Of a stretch of DNA of 38,482 nucleotides, positions 1 to 14,959 are shown piece by piece (within the stretch, counting starts at the first letter, position 1; each line of letters begins with the position of its first letter). Origin of the DNA: Lentisphaeria bacterium (GTDB lineage: Bacteria > Verrucomicrobiota > Lentisphaeria > Victivallales > Victivallaceae); contig JAFVYP010000170.1 in NCBI GenBank assembly GCA_017508555.1, positions 1 to 38,482 of the forward strand, read 5' to 3'. The notes beneath the pieces were generated by a model. It saw only the letters and a program-made list of their open reading frames with translations. It searched no databases and was not told the DNA's origin. The position numbers and the translations under genes are program-made.

Positions 1-1
1 C

Positions 2-937
2 ACGCACATGCACTCTCTGGATTGGTTTGCCGCCGATTCCTCTCCCGGGACCATCAACGCCATCATGCGTTACATGGGGTTTGATATCTGCTCTCTGGCT
101 GTCAAAGATATCTCTTCTTACAACGGCAAGCTGGATCCTGCCAAATATTCTGATGACAAGGTCCTTTTCCTGGACGGACAGGAGTATCATCCTTTCAACT
201 GGAAAGATCGTTTCGATCACGTGGGCCACAACAATTACCACATGCTTCCCATCGGCATCGATCCCGGCGCCTATACACCGGAGTTCACCTGCAGTTATTA
301 TGGCGATGAAGAGGTCGATGCCTACTTGAAAAAGGCCATTGACCTTGTTCATAAAAACCACGGCGCGGTCTGTGCCACCCATCCGGAAAACGTGGATTAC
401 TGGTTCGACTATGACTACGACGCCGTGGATACTGAGCCGCTCCACTCCCTGGAAGGAAATAATATCGAAAGATTCTGGCTCAACGGCGGCAGGATCGCCA
501 TGATGAACAGCGTTGACCTGTACGGTCTGCGCCGCATGCTTGATAATCCTGTGGTCAACTTCATTTATCTGGAAGGAAAAGCCCCCTGCCGCGACAGTGT
601 GGTTGAAGCTGTCAAAAAACGTCATACCATTGCCGCCGTATTTTTTACCGATGCCGATATCCGTCTGGATCATTATCTGCCCGGAGATGTGGTGAAAACG
701 GCTGAGGCGCAGCAGGCGGTCCTCAGGATCAAGGCGCGCATTGCCAAAGGTGTTGTCAAAGAGGTCAGGGTCTATTCCGGAAAAGAGGTGATCTGCCGCT
801 GCTCACCCGGAACAGCTGAGATCGACTTGGAAATCGCCATGCAGGGGATGACGCTGGATAAATTCATCCGTGTGGAGGCTGAAGGCGATGATCCGGCAAG
901 GATCCTTGTCAGCACCCCGTTTTTTCTTGAAGATTGA
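2..937 (+). CDS. PHP-domain metallohydrolase, CehA/McbA-type (5' end outside window)
   Basis: The open frame reaches the left edge, so the N-terminus is missing; about 311 residues are visible. It opens with T-H-M-H-S, the H-x-H metal-binding motif that starts a PHP domain. Further on are D-G-Q-E-Y-H, a region rich in His (D-H-V-G-H) and A-T-H-P-E-N, matching later PHP metal-ligand motifs in order. The C-terminal 100 residues look like a beta-rich accessory region. PHP proteins are metal-dependent phosphoesterases or hydrolases; the CehA/McbA branch is common in polysaccharide-degrading bacteria and its substrates are mostly unknown. The next gene is convergent, only 35 bases away, and I see no terminator hairpin between them. 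The PHP assignment is fairly secure; the substrate is unknown. Confidence 0.72.
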   Translation, partial: THMHSLDWFAADSSPGTINAIMRYMGFDICSLAVKDISSYNGKLDPAKYSDDKVLFLDGQEYHPFNWKDRFDHVGHNNYHMLPIGIDPGAYTPEFTCSYYGDEEVDAYLKKAIDLVHKNHGAVCATHPENVDYWFDYDYDAVDTEPLHSLEGNNIERFWLNGGRIAMMNSVDLYGLRRMLDNPVVNFIYLEGKAPCRDSVVEAVKKRHTIAAVFFTDADIRLDHYLPGDVVKTAEAQQAVLRIKARIAKGVVKEVRVYSGKEVICRCSPGTAEIDLEIAMQGMTLDKFIRVEAEGDDPARILVSTPFFLED

Positions 938-972
938 CCGCACTGCTCCCGGTTTGAAAAAAGGATGCCGTC

Positions 973-1716
973 TCAGAAGGTGCCGCAATAGATCTGCGTT
1001 TCCTGAGGTTCTGTCACAAGACCGTTACGGGCGTGGCGTTCAAAGAGGGCGCGGAGTTCGGCGGTAAAGAGAGCGTACTGCCTGTCTCCCGGCTGAAGGG
1101 CATAGGAGCGGGAGCGCATATTGCCTTCAAAGGCTGCCGGATCCATCGTAAAGGGATTGTCGAAGGAGACGACTTCGACAGTCTTGAAAAACGTGTTCCG
1201 CAAAAAAGCATCCCCCTCTTCCGGAGAGCGTTTCCCGGCATGTCCGTTTTTGAAACGGGGACAGTATTTTTGGCAGATCCGATTGCGTTCGACGGTAAAA
1301 TCATTTTTCAGACTTGTATTCCAGATGATCGCCGTTTTTCCACCGGGACGCAGGAGGCGCAGCGCCTCCTTTTTGAAAAGTTCAGCGTCCAGCCAGTGGA
1401 AGGCCTGGGCAACGGTGATGAGGTCGAAAGAGTTTTCCGGCAGTCCGGTGTTTTCTCCCGTACCGCCTGAACAGGGGATCTCCGGAAGAAGAGCCTGAAA
1501 CATGGCCCGCATTTCCTCATTGGGTTCCACGGCGGAGACATGCTGAAAATGGTCCGGCAGAAGCCGGGTGAAGATCCCCGTTCCGGCGCCGATATCCAGA
1601 ACGTGTTCTCCGGCAGTACGGGATCTCAGCCAGCGGACGGCTGTTTCCGGGTAAGAGGGACGGAAACGGGCATAATCCGCTGACTTGAGCGTGAAGAGTT
1701 CTGTGTTTGCTGGCAT
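973..1716 (-). CDS. Class I SAM-dependent methyltransferase
   Basis: The 247-residue product carries the Rossmann motif I V-L-D-I-G-A-G-T-G at residues 39-47 and an acidic residue ending the second strand (A-V-E-P-N, Glu near 65) that would bind the ribose of S-adenosylmethionine. F-D-L-I-T-V-A-Q-A-F-H-W-L follows as motif II, then L-R-P-G-G-K. It resembles the Methyltransf_11 families that act on small molecules. It is the last gene of the minus-strand train, 47 bases after the symporter stop. No clear Shine-Dalgarno sequence precedes its ATG, so it may rely on coupling to the upstream genes. The substrate cannot be told from sequence. Confidence 0.85.
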   Translation of the reverse strand: MPANTELFTLKSADYARFRPSYPETAVRWLRSRTAGEHVLDIGAGTGIFTRLLPDHFQHVSAVEPNEEMRAMFQALLPEIPCSGGTGENTGLPENSFDLITVAQAFHWLDAELFKKEALRLLRPGGKTAIIWNTSLKNDFTVERNRICQKYCPRFKNGHAGKRSPEEGDAFLRNTFFKTVEVVSFDNPFTMDPAAFEGNMRSRSYALQPGDRQYALFTAELRALFERHARNGLVTEPQETQIYCGTF

Positions 1717-1763
1717 TTTTCAAGTGCTTTCAAAACTGCGGAAGGGCGTGCCTGAAAAGGCTT

Positions 1764-3071
1764 TTATTTGTTGAGCATATCCAGTTTTTTGCCGACGACG
1801 TAGGTGCCGATATTGTCTCCGGCCACGTTGCAGGCCGTTTCAAACATATCCAGCAGGGGATTGATCCCCAGGGCCAGGGCAACGATGGTCGATGTCTGCG
1901 CAGGCGTCAGATGCAGGGAATCCAGCACCAGAAACAGCAGAAAGATGCTGCCGCCGGGAACACCGCCCGCTCCCACGGAGGCAAAGACAACGCTGATGAC
2001 CAGAAGAAGCATCTGGGCGAGAGTCAGCTCAAAACCGAATAAATTGGCCGCCAGGACAGCAAAGACTGGCAGATGGATACAGACGCCGTCCATATTGACC
2101 GTCGCTCCCAGAGAGAGGGTGAAGTTGGCCAGTTCGCTCTTGACCTTGAGCTTCGCCGCCGCTGTTTTCAGAGAAACCGGCAGCGCCGCCGCGCTGGAAC
2201 GGGTGACAAAGGCCGTCAGGATCGGTTCCCGCAGCTGCCACAGCACCGGATAAGGATTGACGCGGCAGATGAGGGCCACGATCATGGGATAACACACCAG
2301 CAGCATCAGCATGATACCGCAGATGACGCACAGAGCCACCTGAAAATAAGATTGGAACAATTCAATGCCGTAAACGGCAAAATTGCAGGCCGTCAGCGCA
2401 AAGACGCCGATGGGAAAATAGGCCATGATCCAGTCGATCATTTTGAAGATCGTGTTCTGCATGGCGCCGATGATCTCAAGCATCCGGGAAACAGCCTCTC
2501 TGACAGCGTTATCCTCTGTCGTATCCAGCACGGTACGGGCGGCCAGACCGAACAGGATGGCAAAGACGATCACGGGCAGAAAATTACCCTCGGCAAGGGC
2601 CTTGAAGGGATTGGCAAAGAGGCCCAGCAGGATATTGAGGAAGGCATTTCCCGCGCTGCTTTTGCCGGTCATGGCAGCCACCTGGGCGGAAAGTTTTCCG
2701 GCAAGTTCTCCTGCGGAGGCAAGTTTCGGGTTGAATAAAAGCGCGATCAGGGAGCCGAACACAGCGGCAAACAGGGAGGTGAAGAGATACCAGGCGCAGA
2801 CGCCTGCACCCATTTTGCCGAAGGTTTTGACCGGCAGACTTGCCGCACCGTGGATCAGTGAGAAAAAGATAATGGGGATCACGATCATTTTCAGCATGTT
2901 CACCAGAACGGCACCGAAGGGGGAAAGGATGGAGACTGTTTTGTTCAAAAATCCGCTGCCGTAAACATTGCCCAGATAATAGATCAGCACCCCTGCGGCA
3001 CAGCCGAGGACAAAAGCGCCCAGATTGCGCCAGATGAGAGGGATACGGTTATACAACTTGAAAATATTCAT
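1764..3071 (-). CDS. SLC1/DAACS-type amino acid:cation symporter
   Basis: The 435-residue polytopic protein has the signatures of the dicarboxylate/amino acid:cation symporter family (GltPh, GltP, DctA). These are a serine-rich first hairpin (R-S-S-A-A-A-L-P), the N-M-D-G cation and substrate motif, a second hairpin G-A-G-G-V-P-G-G, and a last helix with D-M-F-E-T-A-C-N-V-A-G-D. The family imports acidic or neutral amino acids or C4-dicarboxylates with Na+ or H+. The residue matching the Arg of GltPh that binds the substrate side-chain carboxylate (R397) is Glu411 here, so a canonical aspartate or dicarboxylate substrate is doubtful. An AAGGA ribosome binding site lies 8 bases before the ATG. 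It sits between the sialate esterase and the methyltransferase on the same strand. Confidence 0.9.
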   Translation of the reverse strand: MNIFKLYNRIPLIWRNLGAFVLGCAAGVLIYYLGNVYGSGFLNKTVSILSPFGAVLVNMLKMIVIPIIFFSLIHGAASLPVKTFGKMGAGVCAWYLFTSLFAAVFGSLIALLFNPKLASAGELAGKLSAQVAAMTGKSSAGNAFLNILLGLFANPFKALAEGNFLPVIVFAILFGLAARTVLDTTEDNAVREAVSRMLEIIGAMQNTIFKMIDWIMAYFPIGVFALTACNFAVYGIELFQSYFQVALCVICGIMLMLLVCYPMIVALICRVNPYPVLWQLREPILTAFVTRSSAAALPVSLKTAAAKLKVKSELANFTLSLGATVNMDGVCIHLPVFAVLAANLFGFELTLAQMLLLVISVVFASVGAGGVPGGSIFLLFLVLDSLHLTPAQTSTIVALALGINPLLDMFETACNVAGDNIGTYVVGKKLDMLNK

Positions 3072-3133
3072 TTTTCTTTTCCTTGTTTTTTTCCTTTGAT
3101 TTGCAGATCGTCAAAATATGTTGTTCTGCTGTT

Positions 3134-5083
3134 TCAAATCGCCTCTTCAGAAGAGAAGGCCGGAGCGGGATTTTTTCCGTCATACAGGATGTTATTGGGA
3201 TTATCCGCCCAGGCGTAACGGACAGAGCGGGGTTCGGGAACTTGAGCGGATGAGAGTTTGAGGATATTGCCGCAAAGCTCTGCTGTATCCGCGGGGAAGA
3301 ATTTTCCGTCCTCACCTGCCAGATAAAAACTTTTGCCGGGATGATCTGTGAGCAGCATATTTTCCGCGAAGCGGAAAGCAAGTTTCAGCGCGCTGCCGTC
3401 AGGTTCAGCTTTGTCAAAAAGCGGACCGCCGGGGGCATTTTCCCGGTGGTAAATATAATGCAGGGCGGCATCTGCCAGACGGAGACCGACGGTTTTTTTA
3501 TCCTGCGGATGGATGTCCTCAGCCTCTCCTGTCCCCAGAGCCGTTGCGAGATAGACCTGCGGCACCGTGCGGCTGACCCGATACTGCGCCTGCCGCAGGA
3601 TCGCCCAGGTCGAGTAGGGATCATACTCTTTGGGCGCATGGAAATCGGCCAGCTGGACGAGGAAGAAGGGCAGTTCAGGCTGATCCAGATGATAACGCCA
3701 GTCCTGGATCATATTTTCCAGTTTTTTCTGATAACTGCGGGCTTCGGCGATCGTCTGGGCGTTGGATTCTCCCTGATACCAGAGAACGCCGCTGAAGGTA
3801 AAGGGGAGCAGGGTGGCAAACATGCTCTCAAAAAGCACGCCGGGCGTATTGGGGGCGCTGGAACTGTAAGGCATCAGGATGATTTGGCCAAGATCATATT
3901 CCGGCTGAGCTTTCCAGAGACCGGCCAGGGGCAGTTCCTGATCTTTTCCGGCAAGGCGCCAGAGGTCATCCGGACCGCGGAAAGCGCCGTCGTAAGCAAA
4001 GGAAAAGCCGCGGATGGCGATGGTGTTTTCTCCCTCTCTGACAAGAGAGCCGGGGATCTTATAGCATCGGGGCTGATCCCAGAACTGGCTATCCAAACCT
4101 TCTCCGGATCGTCCGATCTCAACGCCGTTGAAATAGGCGGTATCCTGTTTGTCGATGCCTCCTGTTTTAAGGAAAAGCTCCTTTCCGGCCATTTCCGGCG
4201 GAATGGTGATCTTGCGGCGTATCCAGACGGCGCCGTTACCGGAGATCTCCTGATCCACCCAGCTTCCGGGGATGGTCATATCCTGCCAGCTGGCGTCATC
4301 TTTTTCCGGAGCGGCCCAACCCTGGATAAAACCGGTATTGCCCCGGTCGGGACGGGCAAACTCCTTGAGCATTTCATCCAGTTCGATGGGTTTTCCGGAC
4401 CAGGCCTTTTTCTGGCTGCGGATCTTTTCCCAGAGTTCCAGTTTCTGAAGGGTGTCGGGATTGCGCCGCAGGGCGGCAGGACTTGTCCAGGCCTCCACCA
4501 TCGTTCCGCCCCAGGAACAGCAGACAAGGCCCACGGGAACATTCTGTTCAGAAGCGATGCGGCTGCCGAACCAGGCGGCGACAGCCGGGGCCAGAGGGGC
4601 GTTTCCGGTGGTCATGGGCTGCCAGGAGCCTTCAAAAAACTCCTCTTTGCATCCGGTGCATTTGTTGGGAACGGTGATGAAACGCAGACGGTCTGACGGA
4701 CAGACTGTTTCAATGAACTCTCTTTTCTGCCGGGAGCGGAGCGGCTCACTGCCGTCTGAGTGCTGAAGGGGAAGTTTGGCATCAAGGAGATAGGCCATAT
4801 TGGACTGTCCGGAACAGAGCCAGACCTCTCCTGCGAGAATGTTTCTGACGGCGGCGCTTTCCCGGGGATCATCCGGAGAGGTGATCGTCAACTCATAGGG
4901 ACCGCCCGCTTCAAGGGGCGGCAGGGCCAGCTCAAAATAACCGGTGGAAGAGGATTTGCCGTAAAAAGTCATGCCGGCGATCGTGCCTTCCAGCAGGATC
5001 GCCGGAGAGGTTTTGCCCCTCACCGTCACTGAACGGCCCTGCTGAAGCACAGCGCCGTCTGAAAAAAGAGTACTTAACTGCAT
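3134..5083 (-). CDS. Sialate O-acetylesterase (SASA family)
   Basis: The product is 649 residues from the ATG at 5083, which has GGAG 7 bases upstream; a TTG further upstream (5110) would overlap the previous gene and is less likely. The SGNH-type nucleophile motif C-S-G-Q-S-N-M (Ser94), a second block L-W-Y-Q-G-E-S-N-A, and the catalytic Asp/His pair D-I-H-P-Q-D (Asp523, His525) are all present. A galactose-binding-like jelly-roll insert (W-I-R-R-K-I-T-I-P onwards) splits the catalytic domain, as is usual in the family. Such enzymes remove O-acetyl groups from sialic acids, and many bacterial members act on acetylated plant polysaccharides. No signal peptide is visible at this start, so the enzyme is probably cytoplasmic. 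It lies 23 bases after the MBL-fold gene, in an apparent operon. Confidence 0.92.
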   Translation of the reverse strand: MQLSTLFSDGAVLQQGRSVTVRGKTSPAILLEGTIAGMTFYGKSSSTGYFELALPPLEAGGPYELTITSPDDPRESAAVRNILAGEVWLCSGQSNMAYLLDAKLPLQHSDGSEPLRSRQKREFIETVCPSDRLRFITVPNKCTGCKEEFFEGSWQPMTTGNAPLAPAVAAWFGSRIASEQNVPVGLVCCSWGGTMVEAWTSPAALRRNPDTLQKLELWEKIRSQKKAWSGKPIELDEMLKEFARPDRGNTGFIQGWAAPEKDDASWQDMTIPGSWVDQEISGNGAVWIRRKITIPPEMAGKELFLKTGGIDKQDTAYFNGVEIGRSGEGLDSQFWDQPRCYKIPGSLVREGENTIAIRGFSFAYDGAFRGPDDLWRLAGKDQELPLAGLWKAQPEYDLGQIILMPYSSSAPNTPGVLFESMFATLLPFTFSGVLWYQGESNAQTIAEARSYQKKLENMIQDWRYHLDQPELPFFLVQLADFHAPKEYDPYSTWAILRQAQYRVSRTVPQVYLATALGTGEAEDIHPQDKKTVGLRLADAALHYIYHRENAPGGPLFDKAEPDGSALKLAFRFAENMLLTDHPGKSFYLAGEDGKFFPADTAELCGNILKLSSAQVPEPRSVRYAWADNPNNILYDGKNPAPAFSSEEAI

Positions 5084-5106
5084 GAAATTCTCCTTCACAT
5101 TTCGTG

Positions 5107-5871
5107 TCAAATGGTATAGGTGTTGCCGTCTTCAGCAATAATGACAGGCTCTCCCCAGGCGGCTTCGGCGCGGGCTTTGGCGCCGTCATAATCGTTAAGG
5201 ATCTCCCGGCCGGAATGGACGAACATGATCTTCCGGACGCCCGCCTGGTCGGCTCTGAGGCCGGCACAGACCTCTGAGGCTTTGTGATGTCCGGTTTCCA
5301 TCATCAGCAGATCACAGTTGTCCAGCCAGTCCCCCATATCGGAATAGTGCCGGACATCTCCGGAATAGATCACCTGTTTGCCTTCTGCGGTGATACGGAA
5401 ACTGTAAGAGGTGAATTTTCCGTCCTCCGGAACCCCCAGATGGAAGTTGTGCCGGGCCTCCACGCGGATATTTTCATCTTCAAAGATCACACCGTCCGTG
5501 TAATAGGCCGGTTCTATCCTGATCCTGTCGCTCCACTCCAGAGCCATGAAGCCCTCGATGAATTTCCAGATGACAGGGGAGGGCAGGTGCAGGGTGATCG
5601 TTTCCGGATGGTCCAGATCCTGCATAAAGACCAGTTTGCGGATATTCCAAAAGAGATCCGGCAGACCGCCTGCGTGGTCCCGATGGGGATGGGAGATGAA
5701 AATATGTTCGATATCGGTAATGGGCAGTCTTTTGAGCCAGGCAGTACGGGCGCAGCCGCTGCCGGCATCAAAGCAGTAAAGTTTGCCGTTGACTTCGATC
5801 ATGCAGCAGGCGTGCTGCCGTGTGGGCATGGGTTCTGTTCCGGCACAGGTGCCGATGGTGTGGATCTTCAT
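5107..5871 (-). CDS. MBL-fold metallo-hydrolase
   Basis: The product is 254 residues from the ATG at 5871, preceded by AAGGA with 7-base spacing; an in-frame ATG nine codons earlier lacks such a site. The metallo-beta-lactamase zinc motif is intact, S-H-P-H-R-D-H, giving His61, His63, Asp65 and His66. Later ligands are plausible in Y-S-G-D-V-R, E-T-G-H-H and F-V-H-S-G-R. This layout is close to the RNase Z-like and phosphodiesterase-like branch of the superfamily, but the exact substrate is open. It starts 43 bases after the lnt stop and ends 23 bases before the sialate esterase start, so the three are probably co-transcribed. Confidence 0.85.
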   Translation of the reverse strand: MKIHTIGTCAGTEPMPTRQHACCMIEVNGKLYCFDAGSGCARTAWLKRLPITDIEHIFISHPHRDHAGGLPDLFWNIRKLVFMQDLDHPETITLHLPSPVIWKFIEGFMALEWSDRIRIEPAYYTDGVIFEDENIRVEARHNFHLGVPEDGKFTSYSFRITAEGKQVIYSGDVRHYSDMGDWLDNCDLLMMETGHHKASEVCAGLRADQAGVRKIMFVHSGREILNDYDGAKARAEAAWGEPVIIAEDGNTYTI

Positions 5872-5914
5872 TGTATCTTCCTTATGGATATGTTTCAAAG
5901 CAAAAAACGATTTT

Positions 5915-7609
5915 TCAGTCTGCCGCGCCTGTTATTTCCGCCAGTCTTTTCATCCGGTCGTGGAAACGGCTTGAAACGGCGCAGAGCCTGTAAACAGCAA
6001 AGAGGGCCAGCAGCAGAATGAACCACTCCCCATAGCGGGTGTAAAAGGTCCGGGGAGGATCAAGCGGAACGGGGACCGTGATGACCTCTGCCGCCCGGCA
6101 CCGGAGCAGCTCCGGACGGGGACTCTTCCCCGTGGGATCAATGATCCTGAAGGAGCCGTCAGGCATGACCACGCCGCTGCCGCCGTTGTTGCCGCAGCGG
6201 ATCATGGGCAGAGCCGTTTCCACGGCCCGCAGGACAGCGTTGGCCAGGTGCTGTTCCGGTTCGCTGCTGCGGGGATACCAGGCATCATTGGAAAGCACGA
6301 TCAATACATTGGCGCCCCGCCGGGCAAAATGACGTATGACGTAAGAGAATACCCCCTCGTAGCATACGGCAGTTCCGGCGCGGAACTTTTCTGACAGCAC
6401 GATGGGATTGGCGTTTTTTCCGGGGACAAGATCCCGTCCCATGTCGATACAGCGGATGAGGAATCCCGGCAGGTAACGGCGGAAGGGGATGTATTCTCCG
6501 AAAGGCACTCTGTGCAGTTTGTCATATTTTGTGCGGAGCGTTCCCGTTTCATCAAAAAGCAGCGCACTGTTGGTGGCGCCGGGAGCGGTGCTGCCGGTCG
6601 AGTTGTCAAAATCCAGTGCGCCGATGAGAAAGGGGACCTGCCGGGAGCGGCAAAGCTCTTTGACAGTCTGCTGGTACAGGGCGGCCAGACGTCCGTAGGC
6701 TGTGGTCTGGGGATAACGGGACAGATCATAAGCTGTGTAGAAGGGAATGGGGACAGCTCCCTCCGGCCAGATGACCAGATGGGGCCTGGCTCCTTTGTCA
6801 AGCAGCGCTTTTGTGGTTCCGGCATAGATCTCCAGGGCCTCTGCCGCCTGTTCCAGTGTGGCGTGCCGCCGCTGGGAAAGGTTGCCCTGGATCAGCGCCG
6901 GTGAAAAGTCTGCGGTTTTGACCGGAGGCGGATTTTTCAGCCGATAAAAGCCCGCCGCCGCCGCCAGCAGGATCACGCCTGTCAAAAGGCAAAAGACGGT
7001 TTTTGAGCGGTAAATCAGAAGCGCCGCCCAGGCTGTATTAGCCAGCAGCACGAGAAAATTGACCCCGTAGTGGCCGGTCCAGACCGCGATCTGCAGCAGA
7101 ACGGGAACCTTCCAGAGAGTGACGGAAAAATCGTTCCAGGGGAAAAGTCTTGATCTTGTCCACTCCAGCAGGACGAACAAGACGGAAAGCTCCAGCGCGT
7201 ACAGCAGGACTTTCCCCGCAGATTGTTTTTTGGCGGGGAGCGTTCCCTCCATATCCAGCGTGTTGCTGCGCAGAAAAGGGACAGCTCCGGCAAAGACGGC
7301 GGGCCACAGGGAAAGGACCGGGGCGATCAGAAAAGGAACGATCGCTTCGATCTCACGGAGAAAGCGGAAAGCGAACAGCGCCCATCCCATTCCCCAGACC
7401 CATCCGTAAAAAAATGCCGCTTTTGTTCCCGCCCGGTGAAGGACAAAAAGGAGCGGCACCAGACAGAAAGCGGCAAGACATGTCAGATTGAACGGCGGCA
7501 GCGCTGCGGCGTAGAGACAGCCGCCGGCAAAGCAGAGGAGCGTTTTGAAACAAAAGTCGATTTTCCTGCGGCGGGACGCCGGAAGGGAGGAAAAGGCTGG
7601 CAACTTCAT
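5915..7609 (-). CDS. lnt: Apolipoprotein N-acyltransferase
   Basis: The 564-residue inner-membrane protein has about six hydrophobic segments in the first 220 residues, followed by a periplasmic nitrilase-fold domain and a final transmembrane helix near 528-545. The catalytic triad is recognisable: Glu283 in W-P-E-G, Lys364 in Y-D-K-L-H-R-V-P-F-G-E-Y, and Cys416 in A-V-C-Y-E-G-V-F. The block S-N-D-A-W-Y and the sequence R-A-V-E-T-A-L-P-M-I-R are also standard. Lnt adds the third acyl chain to the N-terminal Cys of lipoproteins, fitting the lipoproteins elsewhere in the window (18597, 22555, 28452). It heads the minus-strand gene train, with no strong Shine-Dalgarno before its ATG. Length and motifs are complete, so it should be functional. 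Confidence 0.95.
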   Translation of the reverse strand: MKLPAFSSLPASRRRKIDFCFKTLLCFAGGCLYAAALPPFNLTCLAAFCLVPLLFVLHRAGTKAAFFYGWVWGMGWALFAFRFLREIEAIVPFLIAPVLSLWPAVFAGAVPFLRSNTLDMEGTLPAKKQSAGKVLLYALELSVLFVLLEWTRSRLFPWNDFSVTLWKVPVLLQIAVWTGHYGVNFLVLLANTAWAALLIYRSKTVFCLLTGVILLAAAAGFYRLKNPPPVKTADFSPALIQGNLSQRRHATLEQAAEALEIYAGTTKALLDKGARPHLVIWPEGAVPIPFYTAYDLSRYPQTTAYGRLAALYQQTVKELCRSRQVPFLIGALDFDNSTGSTAPGATNSALLFDETGTLRTKYDKLHRVPFGEYIPFRRYLPGFLIRCIDMGRDLVPGKNANPIVLSEKFRAGTAVCYEGVFSYVIRHFARRGANVLIVLSNDAWYPRSSEPEQHLANAVLRAVETALPMIRCGNNGGSGVVMPDGSFRIIDPTGKSPRPELLRCRAAEVITVPVPLDPPRTFYTRYGEWFILLLALFAVYRLCAVSSRFHDRMKRLAEITGAAD

Positions 7610-7943
7610 TTTTTATCGGACAACTCCTGCTTTTTTTGTATGCTTTGTTCCCGACAAGGGTCGATGGTATCGCGGGGAGGGGGCCGAACGTCGGCTCCGT
7701 TATCTTTCTTTTCGCGGGAAAAGAGGTTTTTCCCCTCCCCCGCACCCCACCCCTTTTCGAGAAAAGCGAAGTATTTTTTAGTTTTTATCATTTATCTACC
7801 CGTATCGGGAACAGAACTTTTTTGTAAGTATTCTTGTTGTTAAACTTGAAAAAAACATGCTTTCAGTGTAATTTACATCACAAGCGGCCTCAAATCAAAT
7901 GAGAGCTGTTAATTTTAACGCTTGTTTTTACGGATTTTTTATT
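7610..7943. other. Divergent intergenic region lnt / nadB
   Basis: This stretch of about 330 bases has no convincing gene. It holds the nadB promoter (7846-7874). Around 7720-7760 one strand is very rich in G+A and the other in C+T, with imperfect inverted segments (TTTTCGCGGGAAAAG, then CCCCTCCCCCGC). I find no convincing hexamer pair for lnt on the minus strand. A loose inverted repeat ACAAGCG / CGCTTGT (about 7879 and 7919) flanks the start of the nadB leader and may be chance. A short in-frame extension of nadB to an ATG at 7899 cannot be excluded. Confidence 0.6.
7846..7874 (+). promoter_or_regulatory. Sigma-70-like promoter for nadB
   Basis: TTGAAA at 7846-7851 and TAATTT at 7869-7874 are separated by exactly 17 bases, a good fit to a housekeeping promoter. 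The predicted start is near 7881, just upstream of the nadB frame. It would drive nadB, pcnB and the GHL10 gene together, since those three are nearly contiguous. Confidence 0.55.
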
Positions 7944-9605
7944 ATGGCTGAAAATAATGAAGTGCTGCATTTTGACCATATTGTGATCGGCAGCGGTCTT
8001 GCGGGGCTTTCCAGCGCACTGCATTTGGCGCGCTGCGGGCGGAGTGTGGCGGTGGTGACCAAGCGTGAGATTGATGAGTGCAACAGCCGTTTGGCTCAAG
8101 GCGGCGTGGCCTGCGTCATGGATGCGCTGGATACCTTTGATGAACATGTTCAGGATACGCTGGTCGCAGGTGCCGGTCTCTGCAATGAAAAAGCTGTTCG
8201 TGCGATCGTGGAAGCGGGGCCTGAGGCTATCCGGGAGCTGATCGAACTGGGCGCGAAGTTCACCACCCGGGGCGATTTGGGCTACAAAGAGGAAAAGAAC
8301 GATTACGATCTGGGCCGCGAAGGCGGACATCACAAGCGCCGGATTCTCCATGCCGGGGATATTACCGGCGCTGAACTGGAACGGGTGATGGTCGAAGCCG
8401 TGACGGCAATGCCCAACATCAGAATATTCGAGTACCATATCGCCATCGACCTTGTGATGAGCGCCCGTCCCACGGAAAAGACGCCGGGACGGTGTTCCGG
8501 CGCGTATGTGCTGGATATCAAACAGGGCAAAGTCATCACCATGCTGGCACCTGCAACGGTCATCGCCTGCGGCGGTGCCGGGAAGGTCTATCTTTACACC
8601 AGCAATCCCGATGTGGCCTGCGGTTCCGGTGTGGCAATGGCCTACCGCGCGGGAGCGAAGATCTCCAATATGGAGTTTATCCAGTTCCATCCCACGATCC
8701 TGCACCATCCGGAAATCCGCTCTTTTCTCATCAGCGAGGCTCTGCGGGGCGAGGGCGCTGTCCTCAAGGCCCGTAACAGTAAAAATGCCGAACCTGAAGA
8801 GTTCATGCACAAATATCACCCCATGAAAAGTCTGGCGCCCCGCGACGTGGTGGCCCGCGCCATCGACAGCGAGATGAAACGGACCGGGGAGGAGTGTGTG
8901 TTTCTGGATATTCGCCATCTTTCCGAGGAGCGTCTCAAACTGCGCTTCCCCCATATTTTTGCCAAATGTCTGGAAGCGGGGGTCAATATGGCTTATGATC
9001 TGATCCCCGTGGTGCCTGCGGCGCACTTTTCCTGCGGCGGCATCACGACGGATATCAACGGCGCCTCCAGCATCATCGGTCTTTATGCCGCCGGAGAAAG
9101 CGCCTGTACGGGATTGCACGGCGCCAACCGTCTGGCCAGCAACAGTCTGCTGGAAGCGCTGGTGGTTTCCCGTTTCCTGGCCCGGGATATCGACGAGAAA
9201 TTTGAAGAGCTTTCCCGGAACAAACCGGAGGAATCTGCACCGATGCACTGGTCCAACGGCAATGCCACGGACTCCGATGAGCAGGTGGTGATCTCCCACA
9301 ACTGGGAGGAGATCCGCCGTTTCATGTGGGACTATGTGGGGATCTACCGCACCAACAAGCGTCTGGAACGCGCCCGGAACCGTATCCGTCTTATCCAGAA
9401 GGAGATCGACAAATACTACCGTGACTTCATCGTCACAGCGGATCTGATCGAACTGCGCAATATCGCCACGGTGGCAGAATTGATCATCACCTGTTCTCTC
9501 AAACGGCATGAAAGCCGCGGACTGCATTTCAACGCAGATTATCCGGAACCGGATCCCCGTCTGGCCTGTGTGGATACTGTGATCTTCAAGAAGCTGGAGA
9601 AATGA
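7944..9605 (+). CDS. nadB: L-aspartate oxidase
   Basis: The FAD-dependent enzyme oxidises L-aspartate to iminoaspartate, the first step of de novo NAD synthesis in the cytoplasm. From the ATG at 7944 it has 553 residues, close to the family's 530-550, and opens with the FAD motif G-S-G-L-A-G at 16-21. Other family blocks follow: S-R-L-A-Q-G-G-V-A, R-E-G-G-H-H (from residue 125) running into R-I-L-H-A-G-D-I-T-G, F-I-Q-F-H-P-T, S-E-A-L-R-G-E-G-A, R-D-V-V-A-R-A, and A-A-G-E-S-A-C-T-G-L-H-G-A-N-R-L. The C-terminal H-E-S-R-G-L-H motif is also typical. An ATG at 7899 would add 15 residues with no counterpart I know of; neither start has a clear Shine-Dalgarno. nadA and nadC are not in the window. 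Confidence 0.95.
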   Translation: MAENNEVLHFDHIVIGSGLAGLSSALHLARCGRSVAVVTKREIDECNSRLAQGGVACVMDALDTFDEHVQDTLVAGAGLCNEKAVRAIVEAGPEAIRELIELGAKFTTRGDLGYKEEKNDYDLGREGGHHKRRILHAGDITGAELERVMVEAVTAMPNIRIFEYHIAIDLVMSARPTEKTPGRCSGAYVLDIKQGKVITMLAPATVIACGGAGKVYLYTSNPDVACGSGVAMAYRAGAKISNMEFIQFHPTILHHPEIRSFLISEALRGEGAVLKARNSKNAEPEEFMHKYHPMKSLAPRDVVARAIDSEMKRTGEECVFLDIRHLSEERLKLRFPHIFAKCLEAGVNMAYDLIPVVPAAHFSCGGITTDINGASSIIGLYAAGESACTGLHGANRLASNSLLEALVVSRFLARDIDEKFEELSRNKPEESAPMHWSNGNATDSDEQVVISHNWEEIRRFMWDYVGIYRTNKRLERARNRIRLIQKEIDKYYRDFIVTADLIELRNIATVAELIITCSLKRHESRGLHFNADYPEPDPRLACVDTVIFKKLEK

Positions 9606-9606
9606 C

Positions 9607-10824
9607 ATGAGAAAAGATCTGCCGGTATCTTCCCATGCCCGTTCCGTTGTCCTCCAGCTTCAGAAAGCGGGTTTTGAAACTTACATCGTGGGGGGCGCCA
9701 TCCGTGATATGCTCATGGGACGGGAGCCTAAAGACTTCGATATATCCACTGCCGCCACGCCGGAGGAGGTGCGTCATGTTTTCGGACGCCGTTCCAGCCG
9801 CATTATCGGCAAGCGTTTCCGTCTGGCGCACGTTTACTGCGGCAGGGAGCTGTTTGAAGTGGCCACTTTCCGCAAGGCGCCGGCCGTTACGGGACAGGAT
9901 GGACGCAAATCTCCCGACGGCGGCGGCATGCCCGAAAACCTCATTATCTCCGACAACGCTTTCGGAACCAGTCAGGAGGATGCCGCCCGCAGGGATTTTA
10001 CGGTCAATGCCCTCTTTTATGATCCTGAAAAAAAGGAGATCAAAGATTTTACAGGCAAGGGCCTCGAAGATATCGAGCGTGGACTTGTCCGTGCCATCGG
10101 AGAGCCTGCGCTGCGTTTTGAAGAGGATCCTGTCCGTATGCTCCGGGCCTTGAAACTGGTGGGACAGTATGAATTTGTCCTTGATAACGCCACGGAAAAT
10201 GCGCTTTTCGCCAAGCTGCCCCTGTTTGATCTGGTCAGTCCCAGCCGCCGGGCTCTGGAGCTTGAAAAGATCCTTCAATCCGCTTACGGGGACCGGCAGC
10301 TTGAGGCTTTTCATGACTACGGTCTGCTGGCCCGTTTTCTGCCCCGTCTGGAGGAAAAATGGGACACCGCCGCCGGTCAATACGCCCTTGAACTTCTTTT
10401 TGAACGCAACTGCCGTATGGAAGAGGGATATTTCCGCAACAGCATCTCTCTTGCCATGGCGGCGCTGGCACTTCCCTTTGTGGAGGAAGCTCTGGGCAGC
10501 GCGCCCGGAGAATTGTGGCAGCCGGGACAGGAGTCAGAGGAGGTTGTCAGCTCCGTTATCGACCAGCTGTTTTATCCTCAAAATATGATGGTCCGCATGC
10601 GCGAAGCGGCCTGCCGTCTGCTGAATCTTCTGCCGTTGATGGAGCTTCGTGAAAACCACATGCTCCGCCGGATCTATTCCAGCCGCAGTTACGGTCATGC
10701 CCGCGAACTGCTGTTCATCCGTCTGGCCGTTGCGGGGAAATCGCTTGAAGAGTGCGAAGCACTGTGGCCTGACAGCGTGCCTGAAAGAGGTCCCCGTGTC
10801 CGCAGAAACCGTGGACGGCGCTGA
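9607..10824 (+). CDS. pcnB: PcnB-type poly(A) polymerase / CCA tRNA nucleotidyltransferase family
   Basis: The 405-residue class II nucleotidyltransferase has the signature G-G-A-I-R-D (29-34) and the metal-binding pair D-F-D at 43-45. I-G-K-R-F-R-L-A-H-V then E-V-A-T-F-R is characteristic of bacterial poly(A) polymerases rather than of most CCA-adding enzymes. R-R-D-F-T-V-N-A-L-F-Y and F-E-E-D-P-V-R-M-L-R-A are shared by both. The C-terminus is strongly basic (R-R-N-R-G-R-R), as in Escherichia coli PcnB, where it binds RNA. GGAG lies 7 bases before the ATG, inside the last codons of nadB, so translation is probably coupled. It would add 3' A-tails that speed RNA decay; a CCA-adding role cannot be ruled out without a phylogeny. 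Confidence 0.85.
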   Translation: MRKDLPVSSHARSVVLQLQKAGFETYIVGGAIRDMLMGREPKDFDISTAATPEEVRHVFGRRSSRIIGKRFRLAHVYCGRELFEVATFRKAPAVTGQDGRKSPDGGGMPENLIISDNAFGTSQEDAARRDFTVNALFYDPEKKEIKDFTGKGLEDIERGLVRAIGEPALRFEEDPVRMLRALKLVGQYEFVLDNATENALFAKLPLFDLVSPSRRALELEKILQSAYGDRQLEAFHDYGLLARFLPRLEEKWDTAAGQYALELLFERNCRMEEGYFRNSISLAMAALALPFVEEALGSAPGELWQPGQESEEVVSSVIDQLFYPQNMMVRMREAACRLLNLLPLMELRENHMLRRIYSSRSYGHARELLFIRLAVAGKSLEECEALWPDSVPERGPRVRRNRGRR

Positions 10825-12145: not shown

Positions 12146-14959
12146 ATGGATTGGTCATCGGCGCGTTGGATATGGCTTGAAAACGGAGGGGATTCATACG
12201 GTCAGTATGTGGTTTTTCAGCGGGATTTCCGTCTGGATTCTTTGCCGGATCAGGCTCTTCTTGCGCTGACGGCGGATTCCTCCTACCGTCTGCGCGTCAA
12301 CGGCCAGTGGTGTGCCGACGGTCCGGCGCGGGGATATCCGGAACACTGGTTTTATGATACAGTGGATTGTTCCCACCTGTTGCGCAGCGGTCTCAACCGT
12401 ATTGAAGTCGAGGTCCATTATTTCGGTTGCGGCACCTACAAGAGCCTCTGCCAGCGGGGCGGTTTTCTGGCCTGTCTTGAGCTTTGCCGCGGGGAGGATA
12501 AAGAGTATATCTGTACCGACACCTCCTGGCGTGCTGCCGTCATCCCCCAGTGCTGCAGCCGGACAGTCAAGCGTTCCAATCAGCTGGAACAGGTGGAGTT
12601 GTACGACAACTCCCTGACGGATGCGCCGGCGTTTGCTCCGGCGGCGGTTGTCTGCGACCCCGAAGCCGGTCCCTGGAAAAATCTCACCCCCCGCCGGACG
12701 CCCATGCTTACCCGCCGGGAGGCGCTCATCCACCGGGTGACGGCGGCATGTCTTGTGGAAAAGGAATATGATACGCTGATGCTTGATCCCCATTGGATCC
12801 TTTTCCCCGGGAGCAACGCCATCAATTACTGTGATACAGCCGTTGTCATTTGTGCTGTGGAGTTTACGGCTTCTGAAAGTTTTGAAACGCTCTTTGTTCT
12901 CAACCGTGCTTTTGCGTCACTCAACGGCGTGCCGCTGGTTCGCGGAGAACGGGTGAAAGTGCCCGCCGGAGAAAACTTTCTTGTTTTCGGTCCGGAAAAT
13001 TTCAGCAGCCACGGAGCCAATGCCTTCGGTGTCGGTTTTCCGAAAACGGAAAAATTCTCTTTCGGACGGAAGGTCAAGGCCTCTGTTCCTGAACTGTCCG
13101 TCAGAATACCGGATATGCCCTATGTCTGGTCCAATAAAGAGTTTCTGGCACTGGTCCCCGCTTTTGACGCGCTGAAAGAAAAAACTCTTGCGCTCCGGTG
13201 CATGAGAGCGTTTTTTACGCTTTTCCCGCAGACGGATGAATGGTCTCCCGGGGAGATCTTCAGTGATGCCGGCTGTATGAGTTTCCAGAACCGTATTCCT
13301 CATCCGCTGCCGCCCGGAAGCGTGGAAAATCTTCAGGCTCTGATCTATCCCGATGACCGCTGTGCCGTGCTGCATCCTGTTGACGGATATGATATTGAGC
13401 TTTGTTGTGATCTGGGGGCCCAGAATGTCGGTTACTGGAATTTTGTCATCCATGCCCCTGCGGGAACGGTTATTGACCTGTACGCCGTGGAGTATATGGA
13501 CGGTGCAGGGAAGATCCAGCACACGGGGGAGGCCTGTTTCAACGGTATGCGTTACATCTGCCGCGAAGGCTGGAACCGTTTCACCAGCAGGGCCCGCCGC
13601 AGCGGAAGATACATATTTATAACAGTCCGCAATATGACAGCCGAGGTCAGGATCCAGTCTCTGCGCCTTGTGGAATCCACTTATCCCGTTGTTCCCTGTG
13701 GCCGTTTCCAGTCGTCGGATGACATTCTGAACAGGATCTACACCATTTCCGAACGGGCGCTCAAGCTGTGCATGGAGGATACGTTCGTGGATTGTCCGCT
13801 TTACGAACAGACCTTCTGGACCGGAGATGCCCGCAATGAGGCTCTTTTCTGTCTTTCCGCCTTCGGGGCGCCGGATCTGGTCAAGCACTGTCACGCGCTG
13901 GCAGGAGACTCTCTGGAACACTTCCCCCTGACGGGGTGTCAGGTTCCTTCCGGATGGAGCTGCCTGATCCCCGCCTTCAGCTTTCTCTGGGTCCTCTATC
14001 TGCGGGATATCCTGCATGAACTGGATGATGTTGAGTATGTGCGTCAAATGTATCCCAAAGTCCTTCAGCTGCTTGACAATGCGGAAAAGATGCTTGATCC
14101 TGATACGGGACTTCTCAAGAGTTATCACTGGAACTTTTTTGAATGGAGCAGGATCGACTGTTCGCATCCGGTCATGCTGTATAACACCATGCTGTTCAAA
14201 GGGGCGCTGGATGCCGCTTGCGAGCTGGCTTCTCCTGCCGGGGCCGGAACGGAAACGCAAGAGCGCCTTGCCGCTCTGGCAGAAAAACTCAAAGAGGCGG
14301 TCAATGCCCGGTGGGATGAGAGAAATCTGGCCTATTTTGAAGCGCTGGATGAAGAGGGAACGCCGGTGGCGGCATTTTCCATGCACACCAGTATATTGTC
14401 GATCCTTTTTGACATTGTTCCGGAAAAATGGCGGGCGTCGGCCTGCGCCAATACCATTGCACCCCGCAGCGGACTTGCCGGCGTCGTGACGCCCTTTGCT
14501 GCGGCCTTTTGGTACGAAGCTCTTGAAAAACTCAACTGTCAGGAGCAGATTTTGGAACATATCCGCAGCGGCTACAAGCAGATGCTTGATTACGGCGCCG
14601 ATACGGTTTGGGAAAATTTCCCCGGCGCCCGGGAGCTGAACGGACTGCTGACGCGCAGTCACTGTCACGCCTGGTCGGCATTGCCTCTGAGCTTTTTCCC
14701 CCGGATCATTCTGGGGATCTATCCGGCGCAGGGGGGCCGCCTGCTTGAGATCAGTCCCTTCATCCAGACGCTTGAATTTGCTTCCGGGACCCGCTGGACG
14801 GTTCCCGGCCCCGTCAGCGTCAGCTGGAAAAAGCATGAAGATAAGACAGTGACCGTTGATGTTCAGGCGCCTGCGGGGACAGAGGTCCGTTTCCGCAGCA
14901 ACGTTTCTCTGCGGGATCATGAGGTGAAATTCAATGTAACTTATTCAACAGGAGTTTGA
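12146..14959 (+). CDS. Alpha-L-rhamnosidase-like glycoside hydrolase (GH78 type)
   Basis: The 937-residue protein has the GH78 architecture. N-terminal beta-sandwich domains begin W-I-W-L and include L-R-V-N-G-Q-W. The (alpha/alpha)6 barrel carries the signature D-C-P-L-Y-E-Q-T-F-W-T-G-D (Asp549 to Asp561, with Glu554 at the expected general-acid region). The C-terminal beta-sandwich includes T-V-P-G-P-V-S-V-S-W. GH78 enzymes remove terminal alpha-L-rhamnose from plant pectin, flavonoid glycosides or bacterial glycans. The family usually shows D-E-R where this protein has Y-E-Q, so the subgroup is divergent and the exact sugar is uncertain. No signal peptide is visible; the start has GGAG with 7-base spacing. 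Its stop is one base before tadB, and the last codons contain the tadB ribosome binding site. Confidence 0.85.
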   Translation: MDWSSARWIWLENGGDSYGQYVVFQRDFRLDSLPDQALLALTADSSYRLRVNGQWCADGPARGYPEHWFYDTVDCSHLLRSGLNRIEVEVHYFGCGTYKSLCQRGGFLACLELCRGEDKEYICTDTSWRAAVIPQCCSRTVKRSNQLEQVELYDNSLTDAPAFAPAAVVCDPEAGPWKNLTPRRTPMLTRREALIHRVTAACLVEKEYDTLMLDPHWILFPGSNAINYCDTAVVICAVEFTASESFETLFVLNRAFASLNGVPLVRGERVKVPAGENFLVFGPENFSSHGANAFGVGFPKTEKFSFGRKVKASVPELSVRIPDMPYVWSNKEFLALVPAFDALKEKTLALRCMRAFFTLFPQTDEWSPGEIFSDAGCMSFQNRIPHPLPPGSVENLQALIYPDDRCAVLHPVDGYDIELCCDLGAQNVGYWNFVIHAPAGTVIDLYAVEYMDGAGKIQHTGEACFNGMRYICREGWNRFTSRARRSGRYIFITVRNMTAEVRIQSLRLVESTYPVVPCGRFQSSDDILNRIYTISERALKLCMEDTFVDCPLYEQTFWTGDARNEALFCLSAFGAPDLVKHCHALAGDSLEHFPLTGCQVPSGWSCLIPAFSFLWVLYLRDILHELDDVEYVRQMYPKVLQLLDNAEKMLDPDTGLLKSYHWNFFEWSRIDCSHPVMLYNTMLFKGALDAACELASPAGAGTETQERLAALAEKLKEAVNARWDERNLAYFEALDEEGTPVAAFSMHTSILSILFDIVPEKWRASACANTIAPRSGLAGVVTPFAAAFWYEALEKLNCQEQILEHIRSGYKQMLDYGADTVWENFPGARELNGLLTRSHCHAWSALPLSFFPRIILGIYPAQGGRLLEISPFIQTLEFASGTRWTVPGPVSVSWKKHEDKTVTVDVQAPAGTEVRFRSNVSLRDHEVKFNVTYSTGV

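Follow-up and report, generated by a model that had tools for sequence, protein, structure and literature searches.

The usual account of selectivity in the glutamate-transporter family centres on one arginine: members that have it take acidic substrates, and members that lack it take neutral ones. A symporter gene of a gut bacterium of the Lentisphaeria raises the question of what is transported when an acidic residue stands in place of the arginine. The gene lies in the window, by which we mean the whole stretch of 38,482 nucleotides analysed here, and its product has glutamate (Glu411) at the position of Arg397 of GltPh, an archaeal Na+/aspartate symporter. As the preliminary description of this DNA had stated, Arg397 is described as binding the side-chain carboxylate of aspartate (PMC12668577), and the arginine is reported to be lost in neutral amino-acid members (PMC5750217, PMC3737229). 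The same description suggested that the glutamate could suit a basic or a zwitterionic substrate. Since an entire branch of the family shares this glutamate with SstT of Escherichia coli, the exchange most likely marks a neutral (serine-like) importer and not a novel type of transporter for basic amino acids.

Family, fold and the residue at position 397

The gene begins with ATG and encodes a protein of 435 residues (P0001) whose C-terminal end reads ...ALALGINPLLDMFETACNVAGDNIGTYVVGKKLDMLNK (Table 1). It matches PF00375 over its full length (residues 12–428; 340.9 bits against a gathering cut-off of 27.9). A phmmer search of the PDB aligns the whole protein, with GltPh (6bat_A) as the best chain (E = 1.2e-69). 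An AlphaFold model built from 38 sequences (mean pLDDT 82.9, pTM 0.83) has the fold of the glutamate-transporter homologues. Among solved structures it comes closest to 6uwl, an intermediate outward-facing state of GltPh (Z = 47.5, rmsd 2.1, 398 residues). The NCBIfam models for GltP/DctA miss their cut-offs with this protein (NF008440, 160 versus 638 bits; NF002461, 124.8 versus 513; NF009587, 98.5 versus 570).

The stretch around Glu411 aligns with GltPh without gaps (DMFETACNVAGD over DMGRTMVNVTGD), so that DMFET stands over DMGRT. This alignment and the codon itself, which reads TTC on the + strand and GAA on the − strand, confirm the Arg-to-Glu exchange first noticed from the letters. The surroundings are retained as had been described: Asp408, Thr412, Asn415, Gly418 and Asp419 are all kept. 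An arginine supplied from elsewhere in TM8, the last helix, is excluded by the alignments, which place no other arginine there. One binding-site arginine is still present, Arg291, which corresponds to Arg276 at the tip of hairpin 1 and is thus found in GltPh too. The Na+-site residues of GltPh (Thr92, Ser93, Asn310, Met311, Asp312 and Asp405) are matched by T, S, N, M, D and D at the aligned sites; because the equivalents of these residues and of Asn401 are kept, the symporter is probably coupled to Na+.

Table 1. Positions in the window of the symporter gene, its site residues and the neighbouring genes
Feature	Position	Strand	Evidence
SDF/SLC1 symporter CDS, 435 aa	1764..3071	-	PF00375, AlphaFold model, fold match to GltPh 6uwl
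Glu411 codon (GltPh Arg397 position)	1839..1841	-	invariant in 38/38
Asp408 (GltPh Asp394; substrate amino group in GltPh)	1848..1850	-	alignments
Asn404 (GltPh Asp390)	1860..1862	-	alignments; Asp390 role, PMC7682989
Asn415 (GltPh Asn401; substrate main-chain carboxylate)	1827..1829	-	alignments
Asp419 (GltPh Asp405; Na+ site)	1815..1817	-	alignments
His333 (GltPh Tyr317)	2073..2075	-	alignments; Tyr317 role, PMC12668577
Val330 (GltPh Thr314; substrate contact)	2082..2084	-	alignments
Asn326-Met327-Asp328 (NMD motif, Na+/substrate site, kept)	2088..2096	-	alignments
Arg291 (GltPh Arg276, hairpin 1 tip), proposed charge partner of Glu411	2199..2201	-	alignments; R/K in 55/55 Glu-type members with a letter there
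Apolipoprotein N-acyltransferase-like gene	5915..7609	-	
Metallo-beta-lactamase-fold (metallo-hydrolase) gene	5107..5898	-	
SASA-type esterase gene	3134..5110	-	
Methyltransferase gene	973..1716	-	

Conservation in relatives and census of position 397

A scan of species genomes for the symporter gave 80 loci. Judged by record titles, they come mostly from metagenome assemblies of Lentisphaeria/Victivallales, many of them from animal guts; Kiritimatiellae, Planctomycetes, Riflebacteria, Marinimicrobia, Parvimonas, Tissierellia, a few Proteobacteria and one Thermoplasmata archaeon are also represented. In every DMFET-type relative whose sequence spans the site, the letters are D-M-[FVL]-E-T. In the alignment of 38 sequences, whose 37 other members are 43–80% identical to the window protein, Arg291, Val330, His333, Asn404, Asp408, Glu411, Asn415 and Asp419 are invariant. 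A chance substitution or a sequencing error at codon 411 is excluded by the presence of the glutamate in all 38 aligned homologues. Conservation of the glutamate in a clade had been named beforehand as the check to make, and it is borne out by this alignment, by the census below and by SstT. Two of the loci (L075 and L080, from Lentisphaerota strain zth2 and another Lentisphaerae assembly) carry two DMFET symporter genes in tandem. In two gut relatives (L074 and L082), Cys or Ser replaces the Na+-site residue Asp405 (NVTGCNIC, NVTGSNIC), and a changed ion coupling is possible there.

For the census, we collected PF00375 matches extending to the profile end from 194 sampled genomes of the window's own phylum and from 149 genomes of a second phylum, that of a Parvimonas genome (G224). 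Among the 112 sequences fetched from the first sample, position 397 (GltPh numbering) is R in 58, E in 48, M in 1, G in 1 and unreadable in 4. The 103 sequences of the second sample have R in 61, G in 20, E in 10, N in 4, A in 2, M in 2 and H, L and V in 1 each, with 1 unreadable. Glu397 occurs in three sequence contexts: one is DMFET, as in the window gene, another is QDSCET, the SstT type, and the third reads DMI/VET..NVWSD. The last is a second Glu397 subfamily, common in the window's genus and phylum and accounting for 20 of the 112 sequences of the own-phylum census; its members are L028–L031, L184–L186, L188, L189, L191–L196, L198–L204, L299, L300 and L304.

Other variants were seen in passing. 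L147 (genome G186) has Met at 397 (DMFMT) together with an acid (Glu) at 390 and a retained Arg276, and might be an intermediate between the Arg and Glu types. The glycines of the second phylum mark the QDSFGTACNVTGD group (e.g., L282, L301, L307 and L310), in which TM7 is N-H-L-like, not N-M-D, and which is another likely neutral-substrate subfamily. Genomes G040, G042, G049, G176 and others, with several cases per genome in G049, contain open frames of about 730–790 residues whose match covers chiefly the N-terminal part of the SDF profile, as if the last helices had diverged or the domain were fused to another.

Correlated changes and the charge of the site

Partner residues, which the preliminary description had not noted, changed along with Arg397 (GltPh residue first): Thr314 to Val330, Tyr317 to His333 and Asp390 to Asn404. 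In GltPh, Asp390 coordinates the guanidinium group of Arg397 (PMC7682989), and Arg397 makes a cation–π contact with Tyr317 and a salt bridge to the side chain of aspartate (PMC12668577). We counted such couplings over 177 pooled rows with E or R at 397 (58 Glu, 119 Arg). An acid at 390 is present in 118 of 119 Arg rows versus none of the 51 Glu rows that have a letter there (7 more are gapped), and a basic residue (R/K) at 276 is present in 55/55 Glu rows versus 16/117 Arg rows. Thr314 is found in none of 57 Glu rows versus 83/117 Arg rows, and Tyr317 in none of 57 versus 90/117; Asn401 is retained in all rows. Since the rows are related, these counts show the pattern of a few lineages, and the corresponding Fisher values are not independent evidence. 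A test on independent pairs found only two pairs on supported branches and had no power, and the counts are for this reason read as clade patterns.

Added up over positions 276, 390, 394 and 397, the formal charge is −1 in 55 of the 58 Glu rows, and three rows are without the 276 column; among the 119 Arg rows it is −1 in 84, 0 in 34 and −2 in 1. On this count of formal charges, the Glu-type site is charge-permuted and not more acidic, a constant-charge permutation that a specialist may not expect.

These data bear on the basic half of the earlier suggestion, by which the protein would be a symporter for lysine, ornithine or arginine with Glu411 binding the cation of the side chain. In principle this is conceivable for a glutamate that lies one helix turn from Asp408, and the contacts that GltPh makes with a side-chain carboxylate are gone. 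However, the idea is weakened by the unchanged charge sum, the extra acid being offset by the basic residue at 276 (Arg291 here) and by the lost acid at 390. It also has to accommodate SstT, which has the same glutamate and takes serine and threonine (PMC10070963), and the neighbours of the 80 loci, among which, as far as they are recurrent or clearly readable, no basic amino-acid gene was recognised. Nothing in these results points to lysine or ornithine, and we regard a basic substrate as improbable.

Transport of an acidic amino acid or dicarboxylate would require the side-chain carboxylate to be bound by Arg291 in place of Arg397. The nearest solved relatives are indeed aspartate transporters, and in GltPh Arg276 is near the site; computational work cited in PMC6175574 has it hydrogen-bonding Asp394 in simulations. 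A glutamate beside the substrate carboxylate would repel it, however, and no Glu-type member that has letters at these positions shows Thr314, Tyr317 or an acid at 390. Published mutants point the same way: the affinity of GltPh R397A for its substrate is drastically reduced, and EAAT3 with its arginine neutralised shifts in selectivity toward neutral amino acids (PMC6175574, PMC3737229). We consider this reading very improbable.

Relation to E. coli SstT

Of the four E. coli members of the family, only SstT (b3089) has Glu at 397; GltP, DctA and TcyP have Arg. SstT is described as a Na+-dependent threonine/serine symporter (PMC10070963). Its NCBIfam model (NF010151) is the best-scoring one for the window protein, at 179.9 bits, which is below the curated equivalog cut-off of 308. 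SstT shares with the window clade Glu397, Arg276, the loss of Thr314 and Tyr317, and the hairpin letters R-S-S-A (hairpin 1) and G-G-S (hairpin 2). The two differ in TM7, where SstT has N-M-A (and thus lacks Asp312) and the window clade N-M-D; in TM8, which reads QDSCETALNSSTD in SstT instead of DMFETACNVAGD; and at Val330 and His333, where SstT has Ala and Thr. The highest identity of E. coli SstT to any row of the 85-row tree described below is 27%, to L079 of the window clade.

Trees were built with the five trait columns removed. In a tree of 85 rows, the DMFET clade and SstT form one group (SH-aLRT 97), confirmed as one side of a branch. A careful free tree of 43 rows, with more SstT members, placed SstT apart from the DMFET clade; on the same set, a tree forced to hold the two together was better than the free tree by 17.3 log units, which means that the free search had missed this grouping. 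The AU test did not reject one common origin for the three Glu groups (p = 0.388), and the DMI/VET..NVWSD group stands apart in both the 85-row and the 43-row trees. As the SstT branches are long, we take a sister grouping of the DMFET clade and SstT as likely rather than secure, and we therefore say that the window protein would work like SstT and not that it is SstT.

PDB sequence searches with the window protein or with E. coli SstT returned no chain named SstT, and the natural Glu-type site thus appears not yet to have been solved structurally. Titles and the opening parts of abstracts, in a literature from which subscription journals were mostly absent, yielded no paper on a glutamate at the Arg397 position in SstT or its relatives.

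Gene neighbourhood

In four of the 80 loci, a gene for L-serine ammonia-lyase lies directly downstream of the symporter gene on the same strand, with a gap within about 110 bases (L088, labelled Formivibrio; L091 and L093, proteobacterial; L092, labelled Verrucomicrobiota). The lyases of L091, L092 and L093 pass the TIGR00720 cut-off; that of L088, cut by the contig end, scores 140.9 against 345.1. The two lyase types are 41% identical. In L093, the glycine-cleavage gene gcvT lies upstream of the symporter. The linkage is confined to one patchy sub-branch, in which L089 is without the pair. A tblastn search with two of these lyases found no further match in the other loci, including 60 mostly Arg-type ones (L112–L141, L223–L252; flanks of at most 1.5 kb per side). 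Among the relatives of G775 and G777, two of the genomes with the pair, matches turned up in 1/76 and 2/81, all of them known cases. In the window's own group there is no positive association, SDH_alpha being present in 5/20 genomes with a DMFET gene versus 19/40 without one (hand count), and no serine ammonia-lyase (SDH_alpha) turned up in the genome that holds the window (completeness about 77%).

The window gene itself belongs to a same-strand run (973–7609, − strand) with genes for an apolipoprotein N-acyltransferase-like protein, a metallo-beta-lactamase-fold protein, a SASA-type esterase and a methyltransferase (Table 1). No conservation of this grouping, and no conserved operon around the gene, was seen in the relatives' loci; the esterase, methyltransferase and metallo-hydrolase say nothing about the substrate. 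Rfam searches for a riboswitch or T-box clue gave only four tRNAs in 16 relatives' loci and no match in window positions 1–8000. The available text of PMC2494555 names DAACS among the transporter families regulated by T-boxes and holds no link to serine or threonine for it. Elsewhere in the window, long open frames oppose each other on both strands at 7890–9608 (572 aa on −, 568 aa on +) and at 12146–14959 (937 aa on +, 667 aa on −).

The zwitterionic half of the earlier suggestion is favoured by these neighbours, in which a serine ammonia-lyase adjoins the gene in some relatives, and by the shared glutamate of SstT. Another neutral amino acid could still be the main substrate: alanine, glycine, cysteine, asparagine/glutamine or a D-amino acid. 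The changes in the pocket favour a zwitterion and not serine specifically, the window's own group lacks the lyase linkage, and Val330 and His333 are unlike the Ala and Thr of SstT. On the other hand, those neighbours that proved informative are all serine/glycine genes, and Glu397 together with Arg276 is common to SstT. We hold this alternative to be rather unlikely.

Proposed function and mechanism

We propose, as the more probable interpretation, that the window protein is a trimeric SLC1/DAACS symporter of the elevator type, probably coupled to Na+, which transports a small neutral (zwitterionic) amino acid and functions in the manner of SstT. The most likely substrate is L-serine, L-threonine or both. 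A published precedent is GltPh R397C, which is reported to transport serine (PMC5750217). As in GltPh, the amino group and the carboxyl group of the substrate would be held by Asp408 and Asn415. A site for a second carboxylate would be missing, as Arg397, Thr314, Tyr317 and the arginine-holding Asp390 are all replaced. Glu411 would be held and neutralised by Arg291 of hairpin 1, perhaps also by His333. The hydroxyl of the substrate could donate a hydrogen bond to this glutamate, or the glutamate could help to hold the substrate ammonium; the remaining pocket would suit a short neutral side chain.

More tentatively, and with considerable doubt, the Glu-type site might represent a second general pocket of the SLC1/DAACS family. 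The Arg397/Asp390 pair would be exchanged for Glu397 and a basic residue at 276 at constant net charge, marking neutral symporters of the serine/threonine type that are maybe proton-sensitive through Glu/His; many proteins now labelled dicarboxylate/amino acid:cation symporters could then be re-annotated from four residues. Glu397 is common (48 of 112 in the own-phylum census) and always comes with a basic 276 and without an acid at 390. Should serine uptake be confirmed, such a rule of four residues might set right the names of many genes in bacteria and archaea, and structural work on SLC1 would gain a natural charge-swapped site.

Comparison with known systems

The window protein belongs to a known family, and its glutamate has a known precedent in SstT. 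The DMI/VET..NVWSD group has Glu397 and the basic character of position 276 in common with the window clade, and it differs in having Lys276, Cys314, Phe317 and Tyr390. The archaeal Na+/aspartate symporters GltPh and GltTk share with the window protein the whole fold, Arg276, Asp394, Asn401, the N-M-D motif and Asp405, whereas their Arg397, Asp390, Thr314 and Tyr317 are replaced by Glu, Asn, Val and His, respectively. The neutral amino-acid exchangers ASCT1 and ASCT2 (SLC1A4/A5) resemble the window protein in the loss of Arg397 and in the neutral substrate that we predict for it, but they are described as having Thr or Cys at this position (PMC5750217), where the window protein has Glu.
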